Shown here in pieces: positions 5,290 to 34,768 of a DNA stretch of 64,000 nucleotides. Positions within the stretch are counted from its first letter, which is position 1; each line of letters begins with the position of its first letter. The position numbers were made by a program, and so were the translations under genes. This stretch comes from Zeaxanthinibacter enoshimensis (GTDB lineage: Bacteria > Bacteroidota > Bacteroidia > Flavobacteriales > Flavobacteriaceae): positions 248,001 through 312,000 of the forward strand of contig NZ_SNYI01000001.1 of the NCBI RefSeq assembly GCF_004362865.1, written 5' to 3'. The notes beneath the pieces were generated by a model. The model was not told where the DNA came from. It saw only the letters and a program-made list of their open reading frames with translations, and did no database searches.

Positions 5290-5404
5290 ATCACATTAAT
5301 TTGTAGGGTGCCCGACCCAGGGTTATTAATTCTTTCATTCCGTTTTTGAAGGCTACGGTCTGCCAAGTTCTTTAAGCACAGAACACTGTACATTTAAGAG
5401 GGTG

Positions 5405-15232: not shown

Positions 15233-15285
15233 TTTGGCAGTCTCACAAATATAGCTATTTTTGGTAAACCAAACTGGTTTACCAA
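15233..15285 (+). promoter_or_regulatory. PL6 promoter with perfect GntR-type operator (bidirectional region)
   Basis: The plus-strand promoter is TTTG (15233-15236), 19 bases, TATTTTTG (15256-15263). The operator 15261-15285 is a perfect inverted repeat with arms TTGGTAAACCA and TGGTTTACCAA and centre AAC; it begins on the last three bases of the -7 box. On the minus strand TATATTTG (15246-15253) is a -7 box for the TIM-barrel/RraA-like pair, so a bound regulator would block both directions. FadR-type GntR proteins recognise TGGTnnnACCA-like sites. Confidence 0.85.
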
Positions 15286-15379
15286 TTGTATTCCATGTTA
15301 GATAAAGTAGTTCTCCCGAAAATATAGCGATCTTCTTGGTTAAGTGAGTTCATTAATAACACCTTTATAATATTTTCAA

Positions 15380-17701
15380 ATGATCCAGAAAAGTTTCTTA
15401 CTGTTAAGTACCGTTCTATTACTGTTTTCATGTAGCGAAAGTTCAAGGTCTGAAGATATTTATGTAAACGATATCATTGAATTGAATGCTGCGATATCTA
15501 ATGCCTCTCCGGGAGATGAAATTATCATGACCAATAATGATTGGACCGATGTGGAAATACGATTTGTAGGCTACGGGACTGAGCAACGGCCCATTACTCT
15601 CAAAGCAGAAACTCCTGGTAAGGTTCTTATAAATGGAAAATCTGATTTAAAACTTGGCGGTGAATACCTCATTGTAGATGGTTTGTATTTCACAGATGGC
15701 ATGTCTCCCTCTAACGCTGTTATCGAATTTGCCATCAACCAGGATACCGTGGCCAATCATTCAAAAGTGACCAACTGTGTTATTCTGGATTTCAATAAAG
15801 GCCAAAGAAATCAGACCGACCTCTGGGTACTCTTTAAAGGTCGACATAATGAGCTGACTCATTCTTACATAGCCGGTAAGGCCAATAGGGGTCCTACCGT
15901 AAGGGTGGATTTAGAGGGAAATAAGAACATAAAGAATTATCACAAGATCACGAATAACCACTTTGGTCCCAGACCCCCCAAAGGTGGTCCGAGTGCGGAA
16001 ACCATCCAACTTGGCAACAGCTATACGTCTATGGCTCCTAGCTATACTCTGGTGGCCAACAATCTATTTGATAGATGCAATGGAGAAGTTGAAATCATTT
16101 CAAGTAAAACAAACTTCAATGAATTCCGGAACAATGTGTTTTACAAAAGTGAAGGTTCATTGGTCACAAGACACGGCAACTACTGTACCGTTGATGGCAA
16201 TTATTTCATCGGAGATAGCAATTCCGAACAAATTGGCGGTGTACGATTAATCGGTACGGGCCATTGGGTTACTAATAATTATTTCTATAACCTGAAAGGG
16301 AAAGTTTTCAGGAGTCCGCTTGCAGTGATGAACGGAATTCCCAAATCGCCCTTGAACAGGTACATACAGGTAACGGATGTGGTGGTGGCCTATAATTCCT
16401 GGATCAATTGTATCTCGCCCTGGCAATTTGGAGTGGGATCTAATACAGACCAAAAAGATGTGTTACCGGCTTCAGAAATAAGGTCGGAAAGACCTATCAG
16501 GACCTTGGTGGCCAACAACCTTATCTTTAATAGAAAAAGGGATGAACCATCCATTGTCGCCCATGATTCCCTGGATGGAATAATTTTTAAAAGCAATATA
16601 ATCAATAGCCAAGGGATTACTTTTCAACATGATTCGATCTTGAAGCAAGCAGAGTTTTCATTAACGGAACTAGATGACAACATTTTTATACCGGCTGAGG
16701 ATCTATCGGAATTTGAACGCTTTAGCGGTTTCGAATTTGATTTGATTTCAAAGGATTTGTTTGGGAATTCACGGGCTGAGAATAATTCGGTCGGTGCGAT
16801 TGCTGGCGAACCGGAGGAAAAGATAAATATTATGGATGACTCTCAATATGGACCCTTTTGGTATTCCACTAAACCTGCGGATGAGCGGAATGCTCAAAGC
16901 CACCTTGTAAGTTCATCGGACGAACTACAGAATGCGATCAAAGCCGCCGCCTACAGCGATACTATTATATTGAAAGCGGAACGATATGCACTGAAATCGA
17001 CATTGAAAATTGACAAGAAATTAACCATAAGATCTGCAGACATTGATAACAAGGCAACCATACAATATCTTGGGGAAGCAGGGGCTCCTGCTTTTGAAAT
17101 GAATCCCAAAGGAGAGCTTTCTCTGATAGCAGTAATTCTCGAGGGAAATGGGGAAAACTATGCATTTGCACCCTTAAAAGAAAACATGTCCAGTTTGTAC
17201 AATTTAAACATTAAGGATTCTGAGATATTCAACTTTGATTATGTCCTTAAGGGCTTTAAACATTCTTTTGCAGAATACATTAAAATACGATCCACGACGA
17301 TACAAAATTGTAAGAATGGCCTCGAACTTTCTGCGGAGGATGATGATCGAGGGGATTATAATGCTGAGAACGTCATTATAGCCGACTGTACCTTTTCTAA
17401 TATTAGTAAGAATGTAATCGATTATTACCGAGGCGGTTATGATGAATCTACGGTTGGTGGTAATTTAACAGTCACCAATAGCACTTTTACACAAAGCGGT
17501 TCCCAAGAGGAAAACGGCATCTTAATTGACACCTATGGCATTATCAATGTAAACATAACCGGCAATACGTTTAGAAACAATAATGTGAGACTGGTAGCAA
17601 GGTTATGGGGTGCCAAAAACAATACACATTCGGATAATATGATAGAAAATTCAGGGAAATTGATCGTGGAAGAAAATCTGCCGCTTAAGTTAATGTATTA
17701 G
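15380..17701 (+). CDS. PL6 alginate lyase with two beta-helix domains
   Basis: A 773-residue lipoprotein (lipobox LLFSC18) predicted to be envelope- or surface-anchored. Residues about 25-440 form the parallel beta-helix of polysaccharide lyase family 6. The catalytic Lys-Arg pair is K243 (IISSKTN) and R264 (VTRHGN), spaced by 21 as in the characterised PL6 enzyme AlyGC (K220/R241). Residues about 470-773 form a second beta-helix-like region, also seen in AlyGC, an exo-acting enzyme. It cleaves alginate by beta-elimination to unsaturated uronates. It is the first gene after the operator at 15261 and is followed 5 bp later by the KdgK-like gene. Confidence 0.88.
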   Translation: MIQKSFLLLSTVLLLFSCSESSRSEDIYVNDIIELNAAISNASPGDEIIMTNNDWTDVEIRFVGYGTEQRPITLKAETPGKVLINGKSDLKLGGEYLIVDGLYFTDGMSPSNAVIEFAINQDTVANHSKVTNCVILDFNKGQRNQTDLWVLFKGRHNELTHSYIAGKANRGPTVRVDLEGNKNIKNYHKITNNHFGPRPPKGGPSAETIQLGNSYTSMAPSYTLVANNLFDRCNGEVEIISSKTNFNEFRNNVFYKSEGSLVTRHGNYCTVDGNYFIGDSNSEQIGGVRLIGTGHWVTNNYFYNLKGKVFRSPLAVMNGIPKSPLNRYIQVTDVVVAYNSWINCISPWQFGVGSNTDQKDVLPASEIRSERPIRTLVANNLIFNRKRDEPSIVAHDSLDGIIFKSNIINSQGITFQHDSILKQAEFSLTELDDNIFIPAEDLSEFERFSGFEFDLISKDLFGNSRAENNSVGAIAGEPEEKINIMDDSQYGPFWYSTKPADERNAQSHLVSSSDELQNAIKAAAYSDTIILKAERYALKSTLKIDKKLTIRSADIDNKATIQYLGEAGAPAFEMNPKGELSLIAVILEGNGENYAFAPLKENMSSLYNLNIKDSEIFNFDYVLKGFKHSFAEYIKIRSTTIQNCKNGLELSAEDDDRGDYNAENVIIADCTFSNISKNVIDYYRGGYDESTVGGNLTVTNSTFTQSGSQEENGILIDTYGIINVNITGNTFRNNNVRLVARLWGAKNNTHSDNMIENSGKLIVEENLPLKLMY

Positions 17702-17706
17702 AAATT

Positions 17707-18708
17707 ATGCCTAAAAAAGTAATCACATTTGGTGAAGTAATGATGCGCTTGTCCCCACCTGGTTATGAGAAATTTTCTCAGGCTTCATCGTTTGATTTGG
17801 TGTATGGAGGTGGTGAGGCAAATGTTGCTATTTCATGTGCTTATTTGGGCATGAAAGCTGCCCATGTGACCCGTTTTCCGGATAATGCCCTCGGTCGAGC
17901 GGCCACACAATTTTTACGTAAGCATTGGCTGAGTACGGAGCACGTTATTTATGGCGATCAAATGCTGGGCAAGTATTTTCTGGAAAAAGGTGCGGTGCAT
18001 AGGCCCAGTGAGGTGATTTATGAACGGGAAGGATCTTCTTTTTCTTTAATAGAACCGTCAATGATCAATTGGGAAGATGTGCTAAAGGATGCTGATTGGT
18101 TCCATTGGACCGGCATAACCCCAGCGATCTCGGAAGGCGCTTATTTTTGTTGTTTGGAGGCCGTAAAGGCCGCCAATAAAATGGGGATACCTGTTTCTGG
18201 AGACATAAATTCACGTAGTAACATGTGGAAATACGGGAAAACCATGCAAGAGGTAATCCCCACTTTGGTGGAGCATAGTGACGTAGTAATTACCAGTAGC
18301 CGTGGAATTCGTGAAATGTTTGAACTGGATCGGCCTAATGATAAATTTCAGGATTTAGCCATCGAACTGATCAACCTGTTTCCCAATATCAATAAAGTGG
18401 TTAAGAAGACCCGCAGAACTTTAAGTGCTTCACATAACCAGATCCAGGGTAAGTTGTGGAATGGGAAAACCTATTTGACCAGCAACATGCTCAATATTAC
18501 CCACATCATAGACCGTGTAGGCACGGGAGATGCTTTCGCCGCCGGTCTTATTTATGGGCTTTTACATTATAACGACGCGAAGGCCATAGCGTTTGCTTCT
18601 GCTGCGTGTGCCTTAAAACACACGGTTCCGGGGGATGTTAATATGGTCTCTTTAGAAAACGTGCAAAGTCTGATGGAGGGGGATACCTCCGGGGCTATCA
18701 AAAGATAG
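17707..18708 (+). CDS. Divergent KdgK-like PfkB sugar kinase
   Basis: A 333-residue PfkB-family kinase clearly homologous to the KdgK at 32482 (shared ITFGEVMMRL, YGGGEANVA, WFHWTGITPAIS, SASHN). The ATP/catalytic loop G-T-G-D275-A-F-A-A-G is intact. However, the substrate loop DLNYRAKLW of the other copy is DINSRSNMW here. The ILGNEEDA segment that holds the NXXE-type Mg/phosphate motif is VITSSRGI, and TTLRGSIS is KKTRRTLS. It may phosphorylate a different 2-keto-3-deoxy acid, or be impaired. It is co-transcribed with PL6 (5 bp gap). Confidence 0.8.
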   Translation: MPKKVITFGEVMMRLSPPGYEKFSQASSFDLVYGGGEANVAISCAYLGMKAAHVTRFPDNALGRAATQFLRKHWLSTEHVIYGDQMLGKYFLEKGAVHRPSEVIYEREGSSFSLIEPSMINWEDVLKDADWFHWTGITPAISEGAYFCCLEAVKAANKMGIPVSGDINSRSNMWKYGKTMQEVIPTLVEHSDVVITSSRGIREMFELDRPNDKFQDLAIELINLFPNINKVVKKTRRTLSASHNQIQGKLWNGKTYLTSNMLNITHIIDRVGTGDAFAAGLIYGLLHYNDAKAIAFASAACALKHTVPGDVNMVSLENVQSLMEGDTSGAIKR

Positions 18709-18812
18709 TTTTCGAATAAAATAAATTTTTACTGGTTCAATTTAATATAAAGCCAGAAACAAATTCTAATAGTAGATATCATATAAAGAGTTGATCTATT
18801 TTATGTTAATTA

Positions 18813-18865
18813 TTTGGAAATGTCAGGAATATGTTTATATTTGGTAAACCAAACTGGTAAACCAA
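18813..18865 (+). promoter_or_regulatory. Promoter and operator of the PL7-PL7 / kdgF / SDR unit
   Basis: TTTG (18813-18816), 19 bases, TATATTTG (18836-18843) is an exact Bacteroidota promoter. The operator is 18841-18865: left arm TTGGTAAACCA, centre AAC, right arm TGGTAAACCAA (two mismatches from the perfect arm). It starts on the last bases of the -7 box, as in the other operators. The leader to the ATG at 18985 is about 130 nt. Confidence 0.85.
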
Positions 18866-18984
18866 TTTTAGCAAATGACGTTTTAGATTCATTTTTTCTG
18901 AATGAAATCTATGAAAATCGAATCTAAAATTAAAAGAGCCTATCTGGCATTAAGATAGCTCTATTAGAAATCAATAAAAATTCC

Positions 18985-21042
18985 ATGATCGTTAAAAGAA
19001 TCAAATCCATCTTCCTTTGTACTTTTTTCAGTATTGGGACTGCCTTACTTCTCATAAGTTGTGGGAATATGAATAAAAAAAAGGACGGTCTAAAAGAGGA
19101 TGGGGAGTCCTCAAAGGTAAAAGCAAATGATGTTATTCCATTTTTCCAGCATTGGAATTTAATCTTGGGTGATGGTTCTAATGTTGGACCTGCCACTGAT
19201 TATGAGAACCAGGATTTCTTTTATACCGCAAGTGATGATGATGGTGATTGGGTAGTATTTAAGTCACCTAACGGAGGAAGTACTCATGGTTCTTCCAATA
19301 ACACTAGAACCGAGTTGGCCCAATTAAAAAAATGGACGCCTATGACCGAGGCCAAAATGAATGCTACACTCAAAGTAATGAATGTGTCTGCTACAGGTGA
19401 TGCCCGGGTTGCCTCTACACATTCAGTAGTGGTAGGCCAGATACATAGTGCAGATGGTCATGAGAATGAACCGTTAAAAATCTTTTATAAAAAATTTCCG
19501 GGGCATACTAAGGGATCCGTGTTTTGGCATTACGAAATCAATACGGAAGGTGAAGATAATTCACAACGTTGGGATTATTCCCATCCTGTTTGGGGCTATG
19601 ATTTCTCCGTTGTTGGTACCGATGAAAATACATATCCGCCGGAGCCTGAAGATGGTATTGCTTTAAATGAAGAATTCAGCTACGAAGTTGAGATTAAAGA
19701 AGGAATGATGCATTTAACTTTTACTAGTGAAGGCCATGAAACAAAAACCTTTAAGAAAAATCTCATTTCTTCTGAGTATGCTGAACGCTCAGAGATTCCG
19801 GAGCAAGTGCGAAATCTTTTTTTCCCAATCGGTCAAGATGGCGTAGAACGTAAGAATGCCTATGCTGGCGAAGGGCTTTTTTTTAAATTGGGAACATATA
19901 ACCAAACCAATGGCAAAGATCCTAAAGTTAATAAGGTCTGGTGCTCAGGAGCCGAAACTCATGGAGGTGATCTTCAAAAACAATATGCAGACGGTAATTA
20001 TGCTGAGGTTTGGTTTAAATCTGCAGACATTACTATCAGTGATGAGGCCATATCCAATGCAGGGTATTTTGAGGCTAATGATGACTTAAGTACTAAGACC
20101 GTATATCCCCATGAAGTCATTCCTTTTATGGATAAATTCAAAATATTATTGGGGAATGGTACTACTGTAGAGGATATCACAGCGTTTGAACATAAGGATT
20201 TTTTCTACACCGTAATTGATGGGACTAGGCGATGGGTAGTTTATAAAACTCCAAATTCTGGCATCACCTCTAAAAATTCAAGTAATACGAGAACAGAGTT
20301 GCATGAAAAAAGAGATTGGACGCCTGAAGATGGCGGTAAATTAACAGGCACCTGTAAGGTTATGCAGGTCTCCGTTTCGGGTGATGCAAGGGTCCCTGCC
20401 GCTTACTCAGTCGTAATTGGACAAATTCATAGTGGAGAAGGGCATGAGAATGAGCCACTTAAGATATTCTATAAGAAATTTCCGGGCCACTCCAAGGGAT
20501 CAGTGTTCTGGAATTATGAGATCAACACCGCCGGAGATGACAATTCTGACAGATGGGATTTTTCAACCGCTGTGTGGGGAAATGATATGTCCGTAACAGC
20601 TTCTAGCCAAGATGGGGCACCTGCAGAACCGGTAGATGGAATTGAATTAGGGGAAGAATTCAGTTATGAAATTAATGTATATGATGGTATTATGTACCTG
20701 ACATTCACCAGTGAAGGGCATGAAACCAAAACATTTACCAAGAACCTGGTCGCATCTGAATATATAGAACGTTCAGACTTGCCGGCACAAACGCAAAAAT
20801 TATTCGTACCCATTGGTCAGGATGGTACGGAAAGGGCAACTGCTTATAAAGGGGAGTTAAATTATTTTAAACAGGGAGCTTATAACCAAACTAACGGTAA
20901 AAGTCCGGAGACAAATAGGGTTTGGTCAGCTGGTGCAGAAACCTATGATGGTGATATTGCTAAGCAATATGAAAATGGGTGTTATACCGAAGTGTGGTTT
21001 CGAGAAGCTACGGTTGGTCCAGGTGTCATGCCCAACAAGTAA
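18985..21042 (+). CDS. Tandem PL7-PL7 alginate lyase lipoprotein
   Basis: A 685-residue lipoprotein (LLLISC26) with two complete alginate-lyase-2 (PL7) jelly-roll domains, about 47-365 and 375-685. Domain 1 has R108-T-E-L, Q152-I-H154 and F-F-K-L-G-T-Y305-N-Q. Domain 2 has R436-T-E-L, Q480-I-H482 and Y-F-K-Q-G-A-Y633-N-Q. Every catalytic position is offset by exactly 328 residues, showing an internal duplication without indels between these sites. Both halves keep Arg, Gln, His and Tyr and should be active. The QIH motif is usually associated with tolerance of guluronate. It is probably the first gene of a unit with kdgF and SDR. Confidence 0.9.
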   Translation: MIVKRIKSIFLCTFFSIGTALLLISCGNMNKKKDGLKEDGESSKVKANDVIPFFQHWNLILGDGSNVGPATDYENQDFFYTASDDDGDWVVFKSPNGGSTHGSSNNTRTELAQLKKWTPMTEAKMNATLKVMNVSATGDARVASTHSVVVGQIHSADGHENEPLKIFYKKFPGHTKGSVFWHYEINTEGEDNSQRWDYSHPVWGYDFSVVGTDENTYPPEPEDGIALNEEFSYEVEIKEGMMHLTFTSEGHETKTFKKNLISSEYAERSEIPEQVRNLFFPIGQDGVERKNAYAGEGLFFKLGTYNQTNGKDPKVNKVWCSGAETHGGDLQKQYADGNYAEVWFKSADITISDEAISNAGYFEANDDLSTKTVYPHEVIPFMDKFKILLGNGTTVEDITAFEHKDFFYTVIDGTRRWVVYKTPNSGITSKNSSNTRTELHEKRDWTPEDGGKLTGTCKVMQVSVSGDARVPAAYSVVIGQIHSGEGHENEPLKIFYKKFPGHSKGSVFWNYEINTAGDDNSDRWDFSTAVWGNDMSVTASSQDGAPAEPVDGIELGEEFSYEINVYDGIMYLTFTSEGHETKTFTKNLVASEYIERSDLPAQTQKLFVPIGQDGTERATAYKGELNYFKQGAYNQTNGKSPETNRVWSAGAETYDGDIAKQYENGCYTEVWFREATVGPGVMPNK

Positions 21043-21195
21043 TGATTTTGAGTTGGTCAAATGTTCAAATTACGTAGGAGTTCTTACATCTTAAAAAAAG
21101 GTAGGAATACAGATTCCGGTTAAAACAAGTATATGAAAATAAGCACAATTACTGACACAACGGTTCTCTGTGTTTTAAACTGCAATAAATAAGTT

Positions 21196-21570
21196 ATGAA
21201 ACGATTTAGCGAGAAGTTCATTACCACAAAAGAAATGGAATGGGAAGAACTAGGAGGTGGAGTATCAAGAAAGTTCTTGGGGTACGATAACCAGATTATG
21301 ATGGTAAGAGTAAAATTCGACAAAGGAGCATTAGGTGCTCCTCATCAGCATTTCCATACACAAGCTACCTACTGTGTTTCAGGTAAATTTGAATTTGAAA
21401 TAGATGGGGAAAAGAAAATCGTCGAAGCAGGTGACGGCGTTTATATTGAACCAAATTTATTGCATAGTGCAATTTGCCTGGAAGAAGGAGAACTCATTGA
21501 CACCTTTAGCCCGGTTAGAGAAGATTTCTTAACGGGTGAAGGACCCTCTTATTTTGGAGATAAGTCATAA
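21196..21570 (+). CDS. kdgF: KdgF, uronate-linearising cupin
   Basis: A 124-residue single-domain cupin. Metal ligands fit H50, H52, Q56 (PHQHFHTQ) and H90 (PNLLHSA), the KdgF pattern, and GKFEFEIDGEK forms the second cupin strand. KdgF converts 4,5-unsaturated monouronates from pectin or alginate lyases into the linear ketouronate (DEH for alginate), the step before reduction. There is no signal peptide, so it acts in the cytoplasm. It sits 153 bp after the tandem PL7 gene and 44 bp before an SDR reductase. Confidence 0.92.
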   Translation: MKRFSEKFITTKEMEWEELGGGVSRKFLGYDNQIMMVRVKFDKGALGAPHQHFHTQATYCVSGKFEFEIDGEKKIVEAGDGVYIEPNLLHSAICLEEGELIDTFSPVREDFLTGEGPSYFGDKS

Positions 21571-21614
21571 CCTGGCAACTTACAAATAGCTATTCTCATA
21601 TTAAATGAGCAAGG

Positions 21615-22379
21615 ATGAAAGATAAATTGATTGGTAAAAATGTGCTCGTGACAGCAGGAGCACAAGGTATTGGCGCTGCGATCACCAAACTCTTTATTGA
21701 CTATGGAGCCAATGTGGCCATCCATTATTTCTCAAGTGCCGAAACCGCCGATCAATTATGCGAATACGCAGCTAGTAAGGAACAAAAAGCAATTGCGCTG
21801 TCCGGTGATCTAACGAAGGAAACCGATGCAAATGTAGTGGTCGAGAAAACCGTGGAAGCTTTTGGTAGTTTAGATATATTGATCAATAATGCAGGTTCTC
21901 TGGTGGCCCGTAAAATGCTGAGCGAAATGGAGACCGATTTTTGGCATAAGGTTATGGACATCAATATGACCTCCATGATGTTCGTGACACGGGCCGCAGC
22001 TCCCCAACTGGCAAAGAACGATTATAGTAGCATTGTCAACTTGGCATCACTGGCTGGGCGCAAGGGTGGCCATCCAGGATCTCTGGTATATTCTACCAGT
22101 AAAGGGGCTATTCTGACTTTTACAAGAGCACTATCCACTGAGTTGGGAGCACAAGGGACTAGGGTCAATGCTGTAGCCCCGGGACTTATCCTCGGGACTT
22201 CGTTTCACAATACACACACGACAAAGGAATCAGCAATTGCCACCACTGCTGGAATACCTCTCCAACGTGCCGGTAATGCCGACGATGTTGCGCGGGCGGT
22301 TTTATATCTGGCATCCGAATATGATGGCTTTATTACGGGCGCTACACTAGATATCAATGGCGGGGTTTACAATATGTAG
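21615..22379 (+). CDS. SDR-family oxidoreductase, candidate DEH reductase (copy 1)
   Basis: A 254-residue classical short-chain dehydrogenase. The NAD(P) loop is T13-A-G-A-Q-G-I-G20, NNAG is at 91-94, and the catalytic S145, Y159 and K163 (YSTSK) are present. The C-terminus ends in ITGATLDINGG. In alginate loci such SDRs reduce DEH to KDG. A second, clearly different SDR with the same expected role is at 31673, so this copy may serve a different uronate isomer or cofactor. It ends the kdgF-containing unit; the SusC leader starts about 250 bp further on. Confidence 0.82.
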   Translation: MKDKLIGKNVLVTAGAQGIGAAITKLFIDYGANVAIHYFSSAETADQLCEYAASKEQKAIALSGDLTKETDANVVVEKTVEAFGSLDILINNAGSLVARKMLSEMETDFWHKVMDINMTSMMFVTRAAAPQLAKNDYSSIVNLASLAGRKGGHPGSLVYSTSKGAILTFTRALSTELGAQGTRVNAVAPGLILGTSFHNTHTTKESAIATTAGIPLQRAGNADDVARAVLYLASEYDGFITGATLDINGGVYNM

Positions 22380-22631
22380 ATCTATAATAATTTCCTTGGT
22401 CAGAAACCGCCGTATAACAGTTAAAGCTGAATCTTAAAACGATTTTGCCCTAACCATGCAAAACACCTACTAGAAAGAAAGGCAGGTAAGATTTTTAGCA
22501 ATCTGCTTTGCGAAGTCTTTTTCGTTAAGATTTGCCAATTCTGTTTGATAAGGATCTGGCCTTCAGAATGTGAGCCTGGCAAAGACCATAAAAAAACTGC
22601 AGATAAATTTTTTTTTAACAGGCTAATAACT
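22380..22631. other. Intergenic region upstream of the susC promoter
   Basis: A non-coding stretch after the SDR gene. It contains a poly-T tract just upstream of the -7 box at 22632 that stands where a -33 element would be. No open frame, RNA gene or strong terminator is visible. Confidence 0.5.
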
Positions 22632-22661
22632 TATATTTGGTAAACCAGTCTGGTTAACCAA
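22632..22661 (+). promoter_or_regulatory. -7 box and GntR-type operator of the susCD operon
   Basis: TATATTTG at 22632-22639 is a perfect -7 box. The operator 22637-22661 has arms TTGGTAAACCA and TGGTTAACCAA (one mismatch) with centre GTC and begins on the last bases of the box. A -33 TTTG is absent (poly-T instead), which may make this promoter depend on an activator or on regulator release. The predicted start near 22646 gives susC a leader of about 305 nt. Confidence 0.8.
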
Positions 22662-22711
22662 TATGGAATACCAGTTTTCGCTTAACTTTTAACCAACCAT
22701 AATCACTACAC

Positions 22712-22795
22712 ATGAAACACTTAAGCACTATAAACAAGAAAAGGATAGGTGCACGCCTATCCTTTTCAATCATTACTTCTTTCGGAGGGAAGTAA
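22712..22795 (+). CDS. Possible 27-residue leader peptide upstream of susC
   Basis: ATG at 22712, 27 codons, TAA at 22793. The peptide begins MKHLSTINKK and ends IITSFGGK: a basic N-terminus followed by a short hydrophobic run. Its middle codons are the two arms of the hairpin at 22739-22766. It lies entirely in the long susC leader. It could be a translated leader peptide that couples ribosome movement to the hairpin, or a chance frame; no homology can be claimed. Confidence 0.35.
   Translation: MKHLSTINKKRIGARLSFSIITSFGGK
22739..22766 (+). promoter_or_regulatory. Perfect hairpin in the susC leader (attenuator-like)
   Basis: AAAAGGATAGG (22739-22749) pairs perfectly with CCTATCCTTTT (22756-22766) across a 6-nt loop. 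The stem ends in four Ts, so it resembles an intrinsic terminator. It lies about 95 nt after the predicted transcription start and 185 nt before the susC ATG. Confidence 0.6.
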
Positions 22796-22950
22796 CTCGA
22801 CAAATGCATTTACATGCGAATTTGCAGAATTCAAAAGTAATCAAATTTCAGCAAAACATTCGCCGCTGTAGTGCAATTGAAGGGAACAGCCAGGTAATTC
22901 AAGATTGAATTACCTATTAAACTCAACTTTTGAATTTAATTGAACAACAG
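22796..22950. other. Distal part of the susC 5' leader
   Basis: A 155-nt untranslated stretch between the possible leader peptide and the chosen susC ATG. No further structure or open frame stands out. Confidence 0.4.
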
Positions 22951-25900
22951 ATGAACTTTAAAACTAAACTTCTCTTAATTGTGGTATTGCTGGTCAATAT
23001 CCAATTATTTGCACAAACCTCCCTCACTGTTTCAGGTACCGTCACTGACGTGAACAATGTACCTGTTCCTGGGGTAAACGTACTGGTTGTTGGAACAACA
23101 CAGGGTACACAAACAGATTTTGACGGAAACTACACAATCGAGGTAGCGTCCGGCAATGTCCTGCGCTTTTCGTCAATCGGTTACCTTACACAATCCATAC
23201 CTGTAGCTGACCAAGCCCAGATCGATGTAGTACTGCAGGAAGACACGGAACAACTGGATGAGGTGGTTCTTATCGGGTACGGCTCCCGTAAAAAAGTACA
23301 CATGACCGGTGCAGTATCTAGCGTGGTCAATGAGGATCTTGATGAGATCGCCGTAGCCAGGGTAGACGACGCCCTTGTCGGGCAAATTGCCGGGGTAAAT
23401 ATTTCGGCAACTGAAGGTGAGGCAGGTTCTGCTCCCACCATCAGGATCAGGGGGGTTGGCTCCCTTAACGGGGATTCCGCTCCTTTAGTTGTGGTGGATG
23501 GTCTGCCTGTGGAGAGTGATTTCCTAGGGAACCTGGACATGAACGAGGTCGAATCTTTTGATGTTTTAAAGGATGCCGCCTCTTCCGCGATCTACGGATC
23601 CAGGGGTTCTAACGGGGTTATACTGATCACGACCAAGCAGGGTAAAGAAGGAAAGACCAAATTTGCCTACAATACCTTTATGGGTTTCAAGGAAGCCCGG
23701 CAGAGCGAAGACTATTATTTCTCCGTAGCAGACGCGGTGGAAAGAGAGATCGCCGCCAATGGAACCTTGTCTAACCGGACATTTTATAAACAACTGATCG
23801 GAGTAGACCGGGATTGGCAGGATATAATCTTTGACGGGGGTGTTATTGAAAACCATTCTTTGAGTGCAAGAGGAGGCAGTAAAAATACCAAGTTCAGCGT
23901 TTCCCTGGGCTACCTTCACGATGAAGGAGTACTGCTGACTGATGATTACAAAAGGTATAATGCCAGGCTGAAGATCGACACCAAGGTCGGCAATAACCTC
24001 AGCTTTGGTGGGAACCTTGCCCCCTCCTATTCCAGGAGACGTCGATTTGACGGTTCCACCCATGATATCCTGAGACAAACCCCATGGCTGCCAGTATACC
24101 ATGATGCCAATACTATCCAGTATGTGGATCGTAACGTATATCCGGATGTGCAGATAGGGGATTACGCAATTCAGCGTCACTTTGATAACTACGACCTGTT
24201 TGGGGACGGTAGTGTCTTACAGGATATCAGTAATACCTCCAATACCAACCCTGCAGCGAAAGTTTTGGAGCGCGATCGAAACGATTATAAATTCAAAATG
24301 GCAGGTGGCGTCTATGCACAGTATAAGATACTTGACGGACTGAATTTCAGGACCGGTTTATCCGGGGATTACCAGAATACTTTCCAGGACAGGTGGCAAG
24401 GCGTCCTCTCTAACAGGAATGGGGCCTCGGCAGCCAGTTATGCCCTTTCTAATGAAAACCGTATTCATATCCTTTTTGAGAATTATCTCTCCTATGACAA
24501 GGTTTTTGGCGAGCATGATGTGGCCATTATTGCCGGTACATCCACTGAAAAATGGGATTACCAGGGTGACAGCGCCTCAGGCTCTGGCTACACTTCAGAC
24601 CTGCTGAAAACACTGGATGCCGCATCGATCATTAATGATATCGGCTCCTTTAAATTAGCTGAGCGTTTCCGCTCCTACTTCGCAAGGGTTAACTATGCGT
24701 TCGCAGATAAGTATCTTGCCTCTATCAGCTACAGGAGAGATGGTAGCTCTATCTTCGGGGTGGATAAGAAATATGGAGATTTCCCGGCAGCCTCTGTCGG
24801 CTGGAGTATTTCTGAAGAGAATTTTCTGAAGGACAGTGACTTTATCAATAACCTAAAGCTGAGAGTCAGTTACGGGTTTACCGGGAATAAAGACATAGAC
24901 ACAGGCAGTGACATCATCGACCTGTATCCTTCCGTACCCTTGCTTGAAGCTGGTTCCGCCATAGTGAATGGGAACCCACAAACAGCTTTTATCGCGTTGA
25001 ATATTGAAAACCCCATCCTGCAGTGGGAACGATTAAAGGAGATCAACCCCGGTATCGATTTTGGGTTCTTTAATAACAGGATCAGTGGATCCGTAGATTA
25101 TTACGAGAGAACCAGTGACAGGCTGTTACTCAATAACCCGGTACCTTCCACAACCGGTTTCTCCAGCGCCCTTGTGAACCTGGGTGAGGTAAAAAACAGT
25201 GGTATTGAAATAGAGTTACGCACCAAAAATGTCACAACCGAAAACTTCAGGTGGTCTACCACTTTCCTTGCCTCTATGAATGAAAATGAATTAACTGATT
25301 TTGCAGATGCCAATGGCCAGATCCAAAATGTTGACGATAAAAGAGCTGCGGAATGGATCAACCTGGTCGGTAACCCTATCTCTTCATATTACGGGTGGGT
25401 AGTAGACCGTGAAATTCCACTGGAATTTCTTCGGGAGCCCTATCATCCTATTGGAGCCCAGGCCCAGGATGTTTATGTAAAAGACCTTAATGGGGATGGG
25501 TTGATCGACGATGACGACAAAACCCTCCTGGGAGATCCTTACCCGGACCTGATCTGGAGTGTGACCAATGACTTTCAATTTGGAGACCTGGATTTCAGCT
25601 TTCTTTTCCAGGGCAGCCATGGAGCAGAGATCAGGAACATGGGTGATCAGTATATCTTCAACCACTTTAACAGCGGACAGGATTTTGATCCTTCAATCAC
25701 ACCTGACCAGGGCTTCATCAAAGAAAAGATCTTTACAAACAGCATCATTCAGGATGCATCATATATAGCGCTGAGAACTTTAACTATCGGGTATAATTTC
25801 CCCAAAGATGTACTCTCTACCCTCGGAGTTTCAAACTTCCGGTTATACGCAACAGGACAGAATTTAATGTACCTGACTGCGGACGATTATACCGGGTTTA

Positions 25901-26004
25901 ATCCAGAGTCGGTAAATGATACCTCCCCTACCACCTACGGTTACCAAAGGGCAGGATCCCCTATTGCCAGGACCATATCCGTTGGAGCAAATATTGAATT
26001 TTAA
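22951..26004 (+). CDS. SusC/RagA-family TonB-dependent outer-membrane receptor
   Basis: A 1017-residue TonB-dependent transporter. The ATG at 22951 (MNFKTKLLLIVVLLV, signal peptide ending LFAQ) is preferred to the TTG 21 bases earlier because it gives a standard signal sequence. Residues about 27-105 are a carboxypeptidase-regulatory-like domain (SGTVTDVNNVPVPGVNVL), then the plug with D-E-V-V-L-I-G-Y-G-S, R-I-R-G-V-G-S-L and D-A-A-S-S-A-I-Y-G-S-R-G-S-N-G-V. The rest is a 22-strand barrel ending in the GANIEF strand. It should import alginate oligosaccharides with the SusD lipoprotein downstream; substrate is inferred from the adjacent lyases. Confidence 0.95.
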   Translation: MNFKTKLLLIVVLLVNIQLFAQTSLTVSGTVTDVNNVPVPGVNVLVVGTTQGTQTDFDGNYTIEVASGNVLRFSSIGYLTQSIPVADQAQIDVVLQEDTEQLDEVVLIGYGSRKKVHMTGAVSSVVNEDLDEIAVARVDDALVGQIAGVNISATEGEAGSAPTIRIRGVGSLNGDSAPLVVVDGLPVESDFLGNLDMNEVESFDVLKDAASSAIYGSRGSNGVILITTKQGKEGKTKFAYNTFMGFKEARQSEDYYFSVADAVEREIAANGTLSNRTFYKQLIGVDRDWQDIIFDGGVIENHSLSARGGSKNTKFSVSLGYLHDEGVLLTDDYKRYNARLKIDTKVGNNLSFGGNLAPSYSRRRRFDGSTHDILRQTPWLPVYHDANTIQYVDRNVYPDVQIGDYAIQRHFDNYDLFGDGSVLQDISNTSNTNPAAKVLERDRNDYKFKMAGGVYAQYKILDGLNFRTGLSGDYQNTFQDRWQGVLSNRNGASAASYALSNENRIHILFENYLSYDKVFGEHDVAIIAGTSTEKWDYQGDSASGSGYTSDLLKTLDAASIINDIGSFKLAERFRSYFARVNYAFADKYLASISYRRDGSSIFGVDKKYGDFPAASVGWSISEENFLKDSDFINNLKLRVSYGFTGNKDIDTGSDIIDLYPSVPLLEAGSAIVNGNPQTAFIALNIENPILQWERLKEINPGIDFGFFNNRISGSVDYYERTSDRLLLNNPVPSTTGFSSALVNLGEVKNSGIEIELRTKNVTTENFRWSTTFLASMNENELTDFADANGQIQNVDDKRAAEWINLVGNPISSYYGWVVDREIPLEFLREPYHPIGAQAQDVYVKDLNGDGLIDDDDKTLLGDPYPDLIWSVTNDFQFGDLDFSFLFQGSHGAEIRNMGDQYIFNHFNSGQDFDPSITPDQGFIKEKIFTNSIIQDASYIALRTLTIGYNFPKDVLSTLGVSNFRLYATGQNLMYLTADDYTGFNPESVNDTSPTTYGYQRAGSPIARTISVGANIEF

Positions 26005-26037
26005 TAAAGAACGAAAATCAGTTTTAAGACAAAAGAT

Positions 26038-27462
26038 ATGAAACAGTATACATACATAGGAGTAGCCTTGTTCCTCGCGGTAGTTACCCTTTCTTGCGAC
26101 GAGGACTTCCTGCAGCCGGTTCCGGAATCTGCTGTGAGCAGTGTGGGCTATTTTTCTAACGATGAGGAAATAGAGACCGGTGTTATCGGAATCTATGATG
26201 CCCTTCAAGGCGAGAATTCGACCAACCTTAATGATAAACGTGGGGTGCAGATCGAGTTCTATGTCACGGAGATGAGAAGTGATAACACCAGGACAAAGAG
26301 CCAGGAAGGTGAAGCGGCCCAATTTGAAAGCTACACCATTACCGCCAATAACGGCCTGGTAGAAAATTATTACCGTAGTTCCTACAATACCATCTACAGG
26401 GCAAACCTGGTGCTGGATAATTTAGCCAATGCGTCGGAAAGCGCAGCTGAAAGATTTGAGGGGGAAGCAAAATTTGCCAGGGCCTACAGCTACTTTAACC
26501 TGGTTAGATTATATGGTGAAATACCCTTGATTGATAAAGTGATCGGACCGCTGGATAAAGAAGCGGCATTCACCAAGGCCTCTTCTGCAGCAATCTACGA
26601 ACTGATCGTCAGTGACCTGGAAACTGCGGTGGCCAACCTGGAAAACGGAGAGATCAACAGGGCTTCAAAGGCTGCAGCCCAGGCTTTATTAGCTAAAGTA
26701 CACCTTACCCTTGGTAATTATACCCAGGCTCAGACCCTGCTGGAAAGTGTCATGAACAGTGGCTTTAGCCTGGAGTCAAATTTCAACGATATCTTTTATA
26801 ATGAAGGTAATAACGAGGTCATTTTCGCCATCGGGTATAATCCCGGGGTAGAGACCGATAGCCAGGACTTCTCTGCAGAATTCATGAACGGAGTAGGAAG
26901 AACTTCCGGGGTTAATTATGTAACTGATGAGGCCCGTGCTATCCTGGACGAGAAGGGCGGAAACCGCACGCAATATTCATACAGGCAGGATCCTTCCCAA
27001 TTAACACAATACCAGGTGACGAAATATTTACCTAATGGTGAAGATGGTGGCAGTGACGGAAAAACTTTTGACTCAGATGCTACACTTTCCGGGAACGACT
27101 GGATCGTACTGCGCTATGCCGATGTACTGCTGATGCACGTGGAGGCCATCATGGCCGGCGGCCCTGAAACTTCTGCAGCTGCTGCCCTGAATTCATTTCA
27201 ACAAGTACGAAACAGGGCCGGGTTAACCGATCCGGTGACCAGCATCACCAAGCAGGATCTGCTCGATGAGCGCAGGGTAGAACTGGCGTTTGAAAACCAG
27301 CGCTTTTTTGACCTGTTGCGATTTGGTGTTGCCCAGGAAACGCTCTCCGCGCTTTCTGATGCCAATGGATATAGCTTTAGTGCTACTGACCTGTTACTGC
27401 CCATACCTCAACGAGAAATTAATTTGAGCAATGGTCTGTTGGAACAAAATCCCGGTTATTAA
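26038..27462 (+). CDS. SusD/RagB-family surface glycan-binding lipoprotein
   Basis: A 474-residue lipoprotein (VVTLSC20). It has the SusD N-terminal region (FLQPVPESAVS, then A-L-Q-G-E-N) and TPR-like helices with KFARAYSYFNLVRLYGEIPLI. The conserved C-terminal RagB part carries LRYADVLLMHVEA, RNRAGL and DERRVELAFENQRFFDLLRFG. It forms the lid over SusC and captures oligosaccharide at the cell surface. It begins 33 bp after susC and is followed 18 bp later by the PKD lipoprotein, all in one operon. Confidence 0.95.
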   Translation: MKQYTYIGVALFLAVVTLSCDEDFLQPVPESAVSSVGYFSNDEEIETGVIGIYDALQGENSTNLNDKRGVQIEFYVTEMRSDNTRTKSQEGEAAQFESYTITANNGLVENYYRSSYNTIYRANLVLDNLANASESAAERFEGEAKFARAYSYFNLVRLYGEIPLIDKVIGPLDKEAAFTKASSAAIYELIVSDLETAVANLENGEINRASKAAAQALLAKVHLTLGNYTQAQTLLESVMNSGFSLESNFNDIFYNEGNNEVIFAIGYNPGVETDSQDFSAEFMNGVGRTSGVNYVTDEARAILDEKGGNRTQYSYRQDPSQLTQYQVTKYLPNGEDGGSDGKTFDSDATLSGNDWIVLRYADVLLMHVEAIMAGGPETSAAAALNSFQQVRNRAGLTDPVTSITKQDLLDERRVELAFENQRFFDLLRFGVAQETLSALSDANGYSFSATDLLLPIPQREINLSNGLLEQNPGY

Positions 27463-27480
27463 GATTTTAAAAATTGTATT

Positions 27481-28341
27481 ATGAAATCAATATTAAATAA
27501 ACTGAACTTAAGTGCTATCACACCTGGCCTGATCATCATGGTCTTATTAACGGCTTGTGATTTTGAATACGACCTGCCAGAAGAGGGTTCGTTTGAAGAT
27601 AAAACACCTCCTTCGGCCAATTTTACCTACTCCCAGGGGGAAGGAGACAACTGGATGGTTTATAGCTTTGCCAACCAATCTACCAGTGCTACTGATTTTG
27701 AGTGGGATTTCGGGGACGGAAATTCCTCTACAGAACTTGACGCTCAGAATACGTACCCGGGGGAAGGCACCTATACCGTAACCTTGACGGCTTCTGATAA
27801 ACTTGGTGTAACCAATGTAAGCAGCCAGGTTGTGGAAGTTGTAGAACCCGAAGTTCCCCTGGCCCGTATTCCTGTAATACTGGAGGCGGATTTTGAAGAC
27901 AACAGCCTGCCGGACGGAACCGGGGATGGCCGAGATTCATGGAGAAACGATTTCGGGGGAGTGATCCAGATCACTAGTAGCCCTGTACAATCAGGTGCCC
28001 AGGCGGCAAAATTCCCCTCTGCAGGGGACAGGGTTGCCTACCAGGACGGACTGGAAGTTACTCCGAATACAGAATATGTATTAACATATTACTATACCTT
28101 GAAAACTAATAACCCGGGCTCCATTACCTTAACGGTATTAGGAGGTACTATCACAGATCTTGCCGAGGTTGCCGGTGCTACCCTCGCATCGTTTGAAGGC
28201 ACAGACCAGGATTCTGCAAGCACTTATGTAAAAGTAGATTTACCCTTCAATTCCGGGGCTAATGAAACCATATCCATTCTTATCACGAACCAGGGAGAAG
28301 AAGCCAGGTTAGACAATATAACTATTGACCTGGGTGTATAA
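27481..28341 (+). CDS. PKD-domain surface glycan-binding lipoprotein
   Basis: A 286-residue lipoprotein (VLLTAC26). Residues about 38-120 are a PKD domain (SANFTYS, DFEWDFGDGNSS, YTVTLTASDKLG). Residues about 130-286 form a beta-sandwich with a carbohydrate-binding look (ILEADFEDNSLPDG, SGAQAAKF, LDNITIDLG at the end), as in CBM4/9-like or galactose-binding folds. Its position directly after susD is where SusE/SusF-type binding proteins occur, so it probably holds alginate at the surface. Binding specificity is inferred from context. Confidence 0.85.
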   Translation: MKSILNKLNLSAITPGLIIMVLLTACDFEYDLPEEGSFEDKTPPSANFTYSQGEGDNWMVYSFANQSTSATDFEWDFGDGNSSTELDAQNTYPGEGTYTVTLTASDKLGVTNVSSQVVEVVEPEVPLARIPVILEADFEDNSLPDGTGDGRDSWRNDFGGVIQITSSPVQSGAQAAKFPSAGDRVAYQDGLEVTPNTEYVLTYYYTLKTNNPGSITLTVLGGTITDLAEVAGATLASFEGTDQDSASTYVKVDLPFNSGANETISILITNQGEEARLDNITIDLGV

Positions 28342-28377
28342 CAGAAACGAAGAGAATAGATAATACAGCTCTGTTTT

Positions 28378-29280
28378 ATGAGATTACTAAATATCATTTT
28401 ATTAGTAGTGCTGCACTCCCTAGTATGTTACTGTCAAGGCAATTCAGTGGAAACGTATCCGCAGGAAGAAATTGAGACGGTAATGCTGCCGGAAGAGAAA
28501 AAGTACAAGTTGCCCAAGATCGACCTTAGCCACTGGAAAGTTACCATTCCTGCCGGTGAAGGTAAAGGCGGTGCGGTCAGTGTAGAACCACCTGAGATCC
28601 TGGATTATGCAACCAATGAAACTTTAAAACCCTATATGTATAATGATTCCGTTTCAGGAGCACTGGTATTCTATGCCTATCCAAGTGATGCGACCACAGC
28701 TAATACCAAGTATTCGAGGTCAGAATTACGGGAGCAGATGGTGCCTGGTGAAGACAATGTAAACTGGACCTTTGCCCAGGGCGGAACACTGAAAGCGAAG
28801 ATAGCTATGGAGGAAGTGTCCAGGCAGACTGACGGCAAGTACCACAGGGTGATCATTGCTCAAATCCACGGTCGTCTGACCAATGAACAACGGGACCTCA
28901 TCGGGCAAAAAGACAACAATGCACCGCCCGTTTTAAAGATATATTGGGATAACGGGAAGATCAGGGTCAAGACCAAAGTACTTAAATTCAGCGGAGTCGG
29001 ACCAGAAGGAATCCTGCATGAAGAAGCCTGGACGGATGATGAAGGAAGAAATTTTGAACAGGAAGTGGACTTCAGGAAGTTCCTGCTGGAGATCAAAGTT
29101 ACTGAGGGGAAAATGGTGGTATCCCTGAATAAGAATGAATATTTCGTATACGACGATGCCAACATACGCCGCTGGGGTGTGTTTGAAAATTATTTCAAAG
29201 CTGGGAACTATTTACAGACCAGGGATGAAGGTGCATTTGCAAGAGTGAAATTTTACGAGTTAGAGGTTAATCATGATTAG
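28378..29280 (+). CDS. PL7 alginate lyase
   Basis: A 300-residue single-domain PL7 enzyme. Catalytic motifs are Y-S-R114-S-E-L-R, Q162-I-H164 and Y-F-K-A-G-N-Y278-L-Q. The N-terminal signal peptide ends near VCYCQ (cysteine 20 may be a lipid site). QIH suggests activity on guluronate-containing blocks. It is a different branch from the tandem PL7 protein: RSELR instead of RTEL, and a Leu in place of Asn in YLQ. It is the last gene of the susC-susD-PKD-PL7 operon. Confidence 0.92.
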   Translation: MRLLNIILLVVLHSLVCYCQGNSVETYPQEEIETVMLPEEKKYKLPKIDLSHWKVTIPAGEGKGGAVSVEPPEILDYATNETLKPYMYNDSVSGALVFYAYPSDATTANTKYSRSELREQMVPGEDNVNWTFAQGGTLKAKIAMEEVSRQTDGKYHRVIIAQIHGRLTNEQRDLIGQKDNNAPPVLKIYWDNGKIRVKTKVLKFSGVGPEGILHEEAWTDDEGRNFEQEVDFRKFLLEIKVTEGKMVVSLNKNEYFVYDDANIRRWGVFENYFKAGNYLQTRDEGAFARVKFYELEVNHD

Positions 29281-29393
29281 TTGTTTGAGTTAGGAAGGCA
29301 TGGTAAGGAGGCTAATGAGCACTTAGTTGCTCAATAGTTTCCCCCCTGCTTAAAAAAGCCCGTCTCTAATCCGGTTTTATGAAAGTAATTTCA

Positions 29394-29423
29394 TAATTTT
29401 AACAAACCAATCTGGTAAACCAA
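29394..29423 (+). promoter_or_regulatory. Autoregulatory operator upstream of the GntR gene
   Basis: The operator 29399-29423 has arms TTAACAAACCA and TGGTAAACCAA with centre ATC, and starts at the sixth base of the box-like TAATTTTA (29394-29401), the same geometry as the other three sites. It is the weakest match, and ends 15 bases before the regulator ATG, as expected for autoregulation. Confidence 0.7.
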
Positions 29424-29438
29424 TCTGGAAATTTAAAG

Positions 29439-30140
29439 ATGAAGATAGAATTACTGAACAAGAACGAGAATACTGAAATTCAGAAGGAGATCATTACCAA
29501 ACTCAAGGATTATATTGAATTTAAAAACCTGGAGCCCGGTGATAAACTGCCATCCGAACGAATGCTCTCTGAGAAATTTGGGGTCAGCAGAAGTAATATC
29601 AGGGAGGCCATTCATAAACTCGAGTTTTTTGGTATCCTCAAGTCGCGACCACAAAGCGGGACATTCATAGCCAATATTGGCCGTGTCGCCATGAGTGGAA
29701 TGCTGGAAGATATTCTCGGGCTGGAGGAACCCGATTTTAAATGCCTGGTGGAAACCCGGATCCTGCTGGAGCTGAAAACGGTGCGACTTGCATCATTGCG
29801 AAGGACGGACGAGGACCTGACCAAAATACAAGATGCTCTTGATGCATATAAGGAAAAAGTATTACAGGGGAAAGACGCAGTAGAGGAAGACCTTTTATTT
29901 CACCTGGCCATTGCCAAGGCTAGTAAGAATAATACGTTAAATACCTTTATGCTGATCATTACCCCGGAGATCATCACCAATTTTGAAAAATACCATGTAT
30001 GTGATTCCAACCTCGCTTTAAAAGGTATTAAGGAACACGAAGATATTTTCCTGGCGATCAAAGAACAGGACCCGCAAAAAGCTAAGGAAAAAATGAAAAC
30101 TCATTTCAGGGTCCTTTACCAGTATTGTTATAATACTTAA
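29439..30140 (+). CDS. FadR-subfamily GntR transcriptional regulator
   Basis: A 233-residue regulator. Residues about 14-80 form the winged helix (GDKLPSERMLSEKFGVSRSNIREAIHKLE, wing SGTFI). Residues about 100-225 form the all-helical FCD ligand domain with the metal-site pattern D151-x3-H155, H200 and H222. FCD regulators bind sugar acids such as uronates or KDG and are usually repressors. The four operators around 15.3, 18.8, 22.6 and 29.4 kb have the TGGTn3ACCA half-site expected for this subfamily, and one precedes its own gene. The natural inducer is likely a DEH or KDG-type intermediate (inference). Confidence 0.9.
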   Translation: MKIELLNKNENTEIQKEIITKLKDYIEFKNLEPGDKLPSERMLSEKFGVSRSNIREAIHKLEFFGILKSRPQSGTFIANIGRVAMSGMLEDILGLEEPDFKCLVETRILLELKTVRLASLRRTDEDLTKIQDALDAYKEKVLQGKDAVEEDLLFHLAIAKASKNNTLNTFMLIITPEIITNFEKYHVCDSNLALKGIKEHEDIFLAIKEQDPQKAKEKMKTHFRVLYQYCYNT

Positions 30141-30370: not shown

Positions 30371-31642
30371 ATGAAAATAAAAGGGTTACGTTGGTGGATC
30401 ATCACGCTGATTTGTATAGCGACCGTGATCAATTACATTGACAGGACGGCATTCGGAGTCATGTGGCCAGAAATGGGCAAAGACCTGGGAATGGACGAGT
30501 CTGATTACGCGGTAATGCTCAATGTGTTTATGGTCACTTATGCGCTCGGAAAATTTTTGTCCGGCAAGCTTTACGATCAGATAGGCACACGCCTGGGGTT
30601 CGTATTCTCTATTGCACTCTGGTCTATTGCAGCTGTGCTCCATGCTTTTGCCCGGGGGCTTGTATCTCTTTCCCTGGTCAGAGCCATGTTAGGCCTGGGT
30701 GAAGCCGGGAACTGGCCTGGGGCTGTTAAGAGTAACGGGGAATGGTTCCCAATAAAGGAACGAGCAATTGCTCAGGGTATCTTCAATGCCGGTGCTTCTT
30801 TAGGCAGTGTGATCGCCCCAGCCCTTATCGCCTTCCTGTATGCACAATTCGGATGGAGGACTACATTCATAATATTAGGACTTGTCGGACTGCTCTGGAT
30901 CATTCCGTGGCTTTTCATAAATAAATCCAAACCTGAGCAGCATCCGTGGCTTACTGAAAAAGAAAGAGATATGATTCTAAAGGATCGTATCGCTCCTGTC
31001 GAGGAGACCAAGAAAGAGAAAGGTTTGTCTCTGAAGCAGATCCTCAGTTACAGGGAATCCTGGGGTGTGCTTTCCGCACGATTTTTTATTGAACCTATCT
31101 GGTGGCTGTTCGTAGGCTGGATGCCCCTCTACCTTCATTCCAAATTCAATTTCAGTATTGAAGAGATCGGGTCTACAATCTGGATCTCTTATTTGGGAGG
31201 TATGGTCGGTAGTATTGCTGGTGGATGGTTCTGTGGTAAACTGATGGAAACTCACTCGCTGAACTTTGCGCGAAAAGTATCTATTCTCATCGGTGGAATT
31301 TTAATATTCGCAGGCCTGATGGGTATCATCTTCTTCGTAAAAGGAGACAACCCCATGACCTTTATTTATATCGTGGGAGTAGTGCTATTCGGATTCCAAT
31401 TTGCTATCGGCAATATACAGACCCTTTCCAGTGATCTGCTTAAAGGTCCCTCGGTGGGAACCCTGGCTGGATTGGCCGGGACCATCGCCGCAGTTTCGGT
31501 CATCATAATGAACTGGCTTATCCCCCGTATTACCACAGTTTCCTATACCCCCGCCTTCGTGGTGATTACGGTACTGGTCCCCCTGGCAATACTATCTATT
31601 TACGTATTGATACGCCGGGTACAGCCTGTAGAAATTAATTGA
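30371..31642 (+). CDS. ExuT-like MFS hexuronate transporter (probable DEH importer)
   Basis: A 423-residue inner-membrane transporter of the anion:cation symporter branch of the MFS, with about 12 helices. VINYIDRTAFGVMWPEMGKDLG in helix 1, GLGEAGNWPGAVKSNGEWFP and ERAIAQGIFNAGASLG are ExuT/GudP signatures. It should carry unsaturated or linear uronates into the cytoplasm. It starts a second catabolic operon (MFS, SDR, kdgK, PFK, kdgA, NRAMP-like), with gaps of 4 to 47 bp between genes. No copy of the GntR operator is visible in the 230 bp upstream, so this unit may be regulated differently or by read-through. Confidence 0.9.
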   Translation: MKIKGLRWWIITLICIATVINYIDRTAFGVMWPEMGKDLGMDESDYAVMLNVFMVTYALGKFLSGKLYDQIGTRLGFVFSIALWSIAAVLHAFARGLVSLSLVRAMLGLGEAGNWPGAVKSNGEWFPIKERAIAQGIFNAGASLGSVIAPALIAFLYAQFGWRTTFIILGLVGLLWIIPWLFINKSKPEQHPWLTEKERDMILKDRIAPVEETKKEKGLSLKQILSYRESWGVLSARFFIEPIWWLFVGWMPLYLHSKFNFSIEEIGSTIWISYLGGMVGSIAGGWFCGKLMETHSLNFARKVSILIGGILIFAGLMGIIFFVKGDNPMTFIYIVGVVLFGFQFAIGNIQTLSSDLLKGPSVGTLAGLAGTIAAVSVIIMNWLIPRITTVSYTPAFVVITVLVPLAILSIYVLIRRVQPVEIN

Positions 31643-31672
31643 ATTAACATTAACCAGTAATAAGAATAAGAG

Positions 31673-32434: not shown

Positions 32435-32481
32435 TATCAGACATAAGTTAAGACAACAATAACACCACAATACATATACAT

Positions 32482-33522: not shown

Positions 33523-33543
33523 GATGATCAAAAACATGAAAGC

Positions 33544-34761: not shown

Positions 34762-34768
34762 GATCATT

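Follow-up and report, generated by a model that had tools for sequence, protein, structure and literature searches.

The AusR regulon of Zobellia galactanivorans was reportedly published by Dudek et al. (Nucleic Acids Research, 2020), and DonS-type antisense RNAs are said to have been published by Cao et al. (2016). As described in parts of three papers (PMC8286568, PMC7874173, PMC8073546), AusR is a GntR-family repressor of an alginate polysaccharide utilization locus (PUL), and each target promoter carries one to three copies of its operator. For the FadR subfamily of GntR regulators, the relevant portion of a published survey (PMC4494728) gives binding sites with a gap of 2 or 3 nt between GT and AC, 2 in the case of UxuR, and lists a FadR set without Bacteroidetes proteins. 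DonS and its kin, as outlined in part of PMC7366714, are cis-antisense RNAs of 78-128 nt that belong to susC homologues in Bacteroides PULs. Here we analysed a 64,000-nucleotide stretch of the Zeaxanthinibacter enoshimensis genome (NZ_SNYI01000001.1, positions 248,001 to 312,000, hereafter the window), which carries an alginate PUL with four operator-like sites. These four sites very probably serve as operators for a single GntR/FCD repressor, the product of the gene at 29439-30140, which would act like AusR by binding and repressing at each of them.

Tandem units at four alginate promoters

An initial annotation of the window had placed 25-bp operators at 15261-15285, 18841-18865, 22637-22661 and 29399-29423, and we found all four sequences at these positions. 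Site 1 sits between a divergent TIM-barrel gene and a polysaccharide lyase family 6 (PL6) gene, site 2 precedes the PL7-PL7/cupin/SDR genes, site 3 precedes susC and site 4 precedes the GntR gene; their two arms agree at 11, 9, 10 and 6 of 11 positions, respectively. A search of the whole 3.34-Mb genome with TTGGTAAACCANNCTGGTWWACCAA, allowing up to 3 mismatches, returned these four sites only, and the reversed control pattern returned 0. We then scored 80 ortholog loci (1.52 Mb in all, no named Zobellia locus among them), which hold 202 sites scoring at least 15/18 vs 0 in one first-order Markov shuffle, and 19 vs 8 at a score of 14/18; at scores of 12-13/18 there was no excess over the shuffle.

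Each operator had been described as one dyad, with two 11-bp half-sites around 3 bp, and likened to TGGTn3ACCA sites. Neither description held. By its sequence each of the 11-bp arms forms a whole palindrome of FadR type, YTGGTnnACCAR, which recurs at 13-bp intervals, and the spacing TGGTn3ACCA occurs nowhere in the sites, where the gap within the unit is 2 nt and the central dyad has the inverse form, ACCAn3TGGT. The window contains two units at each of PL6 and PL7-PL7, three at susC and one intact unit at the GntR gene, all on the plus strand. The predicted AusR-type operator upstream of PL6 (15261-15285) comprises units at 15262-15271 and 15275-15284 and overlaps the -7 box, and that upstream of PL7-PL7 (18841-18865) comprises units at 18842-18851 and 18855-18864. 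Upstream of susC the predicted operator extends over 22637-22673, with units at 22638-22647, 22651-22660 and 22664-22673; the last of these, TGGAATACCA, has one mismatch and was overlooked in the initial annotation. The predicted operator upstream of the GntR gene (29399-29423) has its intact unit at 29413-29422 and a degenerate unit (5/8) at 29400-29409.

Across the ortholog loci TGGT-N2-ACCA occurs 256 times vs 24 in shuffles, and the distances from unit to unit are most often 13 bp (140), 26 bp (54) and 39 bp (4); because these distances dominate, we take the units to be in tandem. The regulator could instead recognize the central dyad ACCAnnnTGGT, with the outer TGGT and ACCA as mere extensions that lengthen its half-sites to 11 bp. 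This dyad is itself enriched (188 vs 19 in shuffles), and three of the four window sites come close to symmetry around their centre. Its enrichment is, however, explained by tandem units, and because a tandem array holds both patterns, only the ausR leaders of relatives discriminate between them. Among 79 scored leaders (1 more was too short) the dyad is retained in 52, each time together with the unit; the unit occurs without an exact dyad in 12 and the dyad without the unit in 0. Three- and four-unit arrays exist with whole units at both ends, and the dyad runs in the opposite orientation to TKGT...ACMA, the FadR-subfamily consensus given in the relevant part of PMC4494728. We consider a central-dyad site improbable and, on the unit and distance counts together with the ausR leader counts, rejected the single 25-bp dyad in favour of tandem units.

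The tandem unit itself varies little. It reads CTGGT(T/C)A-ACCA(A/G) in 63 of the 64 unit-bearing ausR leaders and is nearly always the perfect palindrome TGGTTAACCA; as TGGTnnACCA with a gap of 2, it is a TKGT/ACMA palindrome with a GT-AC gap in the 2- or 3-nt range of FadR-subfamily sites.

Promoter fusion and the GntR/FCD regulator

Arrays were counted if at least one unit was intact and the others were within two mismatches, and 103 were retained: 69 before susC, 16 before ausR, 10 before PL7-PL7, one each before PL6, a second PL7 and an MFS gene, and 5 unassigned. The susC arrays comprise 53 triple, 14 double and 2 quadruple arrays. In 92 of the 103 arrays a TAnnTTTG sequence ends in the first unit, including 69/69 at susC and 10/10 at PL7-PL7, and all ten of the latter have TTTG at 19 bp upstream of the box. 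Since TTTG is part of the unit, some of the fit between array and box is automatic; what is independent is the TA at a fixed distance.

Every operator in the window begins at base 6 of such a box, as had been annotated. The boxes, all on the plus strand, are TATTTTTG at PL6 (15256-15263, with TTTG at 15233-15236), TATATTTG at PL7-PL7 (18836-18843, with TTTG at 18813-18816) and again at susC (22632-22639, with TTTT 19 bp upstream), and the -7-like TAATTTTA at the GntR gene (29394-29401, with CCGG 19 bp upstream). The first three are exact TAnnTTTG and the fourth is TAnnTTTA; the perfect TTTG at 19 bp credited to two boxes is that of PL6 and PL7-PL7. The sites had also been called identically placed, which is so at three promoters and only approximately so at the GntR gene. 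In Flavobacterium psychrophilum the corresponding box covers -12 to -5 (as given in part of PMC9723704), and by that measure transcription would start near 15268, 18848, 22644 and 29406, within the arrays, which makes a steric block of initiation the natural reading. We propose that the repressor would bind YTGGTnnACCAR, probably as one dimer per unit, on units that run head to tail every 13 bp, with the array covering the start point and the first unit sharing TTTG with the -7 box. Repressor so bound, perhaps cooperatively, would block initiation, and an alginate breakdown product would release it.

Two further promoter elements lie beside these operators. On the minus strand next to site 1, a divergent -7 box TATATTTG (15246-15253) faces the TIM-barrel/RraA genes, and the same box occurs in 5/5 relatives in which an RraA or TIM homologue diverges from the array, so that site 1 may control both directions, PL6 and TIM/RraA. 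The susC promoter contains TTAAC-N6-ATAAC-N-TATATTTG on the plus strand (22615-22639), the sole 0-mismatch match to this element in the genome. Within the promoter spacer, the core bases of TTAAC-N6-ATAAC are each present in 50 to 52 of 53 triple-array relatives, and the element is possibly an activator site.

The AusR-like GntR/FCD regulator (29439-30140, plus strand, 233 aa) is the genome's sole match to PF00392. It joins a GntR winged helix-turn-helix (PF00392, 3.9e-17) to an FCD domain (PF07729, 4.2e-23), the domain make-up of the FadR subfamily, and its best relatives by sequence in the PDB are PdhR- and LldR-like FCD proteins, NanR and FadR. Of 199 family genomes, 50 encode an ortholog at E <=1e-30. 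Allowing up to 1 mismatch, we found the double-unit motif in 49 of these 50 and in 0 of the 149 genomes without the regulator (reversed control 0 in every genome); the only genome with the regulator and without the motif is G025. For this co-occurrence Fisher's test gives p 4.4e-46, a value that ignores shared descent. It is very improbable that a regulator other than the GntR protein binds the sites, considering that gene and motif co-occur near-perfectly over the 199 genomes, that the site at the GntR gene itself is autoregulatory in kind, that the motif is of the FadR-subfamily type described in part of PMC4494728, and that the genome has no second PF00392 protein. Together with the co-occurrence, the lone PF00392 protein also makes most likely what the initial annotation had proposed, namely that one GntR protein would control PL6, PL7-PL7/kdgF/SDR, susCD and itself by covering the core promoter.

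Several observations weigh against a single AusR-like regulon built on this unit. The relatives share descent, and the counts are not independent events. Fifteen of the 79 ausR leaders lack both the exact unit and the exact dyad, and in the 12 unit-only leaders the left ACCA keeps at most 2/4 bases in 10 and 3/4 in 2. No site at or above 14/18 was found in 4 of the 80 loci, some of which are short contigs, and exact TAnnTTTG is present in 8/16 ausR arrays and 0/1 PL6 array of a relative. Within the window, no such operator was found at the 2-keto-3-deoxygluconate (KDG) operon (30371-35437).

Attempts to extend the regulon across the genome were rejected. Searching with YTGGTWWACCAR gives 16 forward matches vs 6 for the reversed control, and 7 of the 16 belong to the four operators. 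Eight of the other nine were examined and all lie inside open reading frames (ORFs), without a -7 box, while no locus was available for the ninth (C3:69239). Another two matches, to TTGGTNNACCAA (L118, L119), are likewise inside ORFs. One relative (L061) has a double array, at 15864, located 107 bp before an MFS homologue, so the regulon of some species may reach the KDG-operon side, which it does not in the window.

A predicted antisense RNA in the susC leader

The susC leader, from the operator to the start of the gene, contains two conserved hairpins. From the minus-strand wobbles, T tract and fixed -7 box described below, we predict an antisense RNA gene of ~95 nt on that strand, read from about 22827 to 22733, with a 5' hairpin, a hairpin TTACTTC...GAAGTAA at 22773-22795 and a terminator hairpin at 22738-22767; its putative -7 box, TACTTTTG, is at 22832-22839 on the minus strand. 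Leaders shorter than 120 nt were removed before alignment, which left 68 sequences with the window included; L085, whose leader stretch is 110 nt, was excluded from alignments A1 and A2, so that 67/68 were used, and 4/68 leaders without the anchor were left out of one anchored listing. In alignment A1 (67 sequences) 89.9% of cells pair, and pairs changing on both sides number 11 vs 4.2 in shuffles.

Alternatively, these hairpins could work within the susC mRNA itself, as a sense-strand attenuator or as an element affecting its stability. Folding energy is alike on both strands (window z of -5.0 on the minus and -5.2 on the plus strand) and does not separate them, and 51 of 62 leaders (one of the 62 is mis-anchored) have an ATG ahead of the first hairpin, mostly opening a very short ORF that ends nearby. 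Three other features do separate the strands. G-U wobbles occupy 65 cells when read on the minus strand vs 11 on the plus strand (binomial p 1.8e-10, with cells that are not independent). On the minus strand the outer hairpin is followed by C and then seven T in 50/67 leaders, the tract of the window being interrupted (TTTTCTTGTT), and the terminator scan reports a leader terminator on that strand only. The antisense -7 box falls in one fixed alignment column, where TAnnTTTG is exact in 49/67 and within one mismatch in 62/67, with at most 1 in every other column. We regard a purely sense-strand role as unlikely. A -33 TTTG for the antisense promoter was also sought and is unsupported, with 1/67 at each of the spacings 20, 24 and 25.

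The leader ATG lies ~17-30 nt before the first hairpin, and in most long leaders it opens a 2-8-codon ORF. The window has this ATG at 22712, where the ORF runs for 27 codons through the hairpins.

A plus-strand, two-hairpin model of the element (R1) finds one confident copy in the genome, at 77.4 bits, with the next match at 27.5. At E <=1e-4 the model matched 37 of the 199 family genomes, every one of which belongs to the 50 that have the regulator; the 149 that lack it gave no match. Under strict filters 13 regulator-positive genomes had no R1 match. Each matched genome has one copy, except G026, which has two. A second model, R2, recovers loci outside its build (L059, 111.6 bits; L063, 95.7 bits; L093, 50.4 bits), and in a class-wide sample 3/395 genomes matched, all of them Flavobacteriaceae. 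Scanning the leader against Rfam gave no family at threshold; a minus-strand match to RF03533 at 24.8 bits, vs a gathering score of 128, was treated as chance. No antisense RNA described for alginate PULs was found in a literature search of partial coverage. On this sequence evidence we lean towards the view that susC of many Flavobacteriaceae is under two stacked switches, a repressor on a promoter-fused tandem operator and an unreported cis-antisense RNA of ~95 nt inherited only with that repressor. The RNA would be a likely second layer at susC: made from the opposite strand of the leader and transcribed toward the susC promoter, in the absence of alginate it would remove susC transcripts that arise by leakage, or stop elongation.

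In one relative (L059, 9387-10001) a susC-type array (9387) and an antisense model match (9459-9578) lie directly upstream of ausR, within ~600 bp. Because the interval is only ~600 bp, a full susC cannot fit between, and the array and antisense match are possibly a remnant.

The alginate locus and its relation to known systems

The genes around the operators, all on the plus strand, are those of an alginate locus. A PL6-type alginate lyase (Chondroitinas_B, 15380-17701) is followed by a PfkB sugar kinase resembling KDG kinase (17707-18708), an alginate lyase with two PL7 stretches (18985-21042), and cupin (KdgF-like) and SDR genes (21196-22379). SusC, SusD and a PKD protein occupy 22951-28341, where the likely susC start is the ATG at 22951, in frame with the TTG at 22930 in the ORF list, and a second PL7 alginate lyase (28378-29280) lies just upstream of the GntR gene. 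Elsewhere in the window, Rfam places an S16-Flavobacteria ribosomal protein leader at 5295-5330 on the minus strand, above its gathering score.

The GntR repressor is probably the counterpart of Z. galactanivorans AusR. As in that system, a GntR gene, here with an FCD domain and with PL6, PL7 and SusCD neighbours, lies within an alginate PUL, and the operator copies in the window, one intact, two, two and three, agree with the published account of AusR operator copy number. The window differs in genus and in a regulon that includes PL6 and the divergent TIM/RraA genes, and the two are likened by description rather than by AusR protein or operator sequence. The window regulon is thus a further case of the published AusR kind, and the general idea is not new; what is added is a family-wide extension of the published repressor model, a code readable from sequence in which the count of 13-bp units lets one propose which promoters are held most tightly.

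With the UxuR/FadR subfamily, as covered in part of PMC4494728, the regulator shares the FCD-type GntR architecture and the TGGTnnACCA unit; the UxuR survey there reports weaker extra boxes beside sites, whereas the window repeats whole units at a fixed 13 bp.

The antisense candidate resembles DonS-type RNAs in its predicted length of ~95 nt and in its predicted place opposite susC, here the susC leader, and, if of that type, would act negatively on its susC; its predicted -7 box and terminator are both on the minus strand. It differs from DonS in belonging to an alginate PUL of Flavobacteriaceae, in lying wholly within the leader and in being found with AusR; it is predicted from sequence and is likened to DonS by description. 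For marine alginate degraders the papers cited here describe PUL control mainly at transcription initiation, and the window offers a concrete antisense-RNA candidate for them which, if expressed, would tie the PULs of flavobacteria to the kind of antisense control familiar from Bacteroides of the gut.

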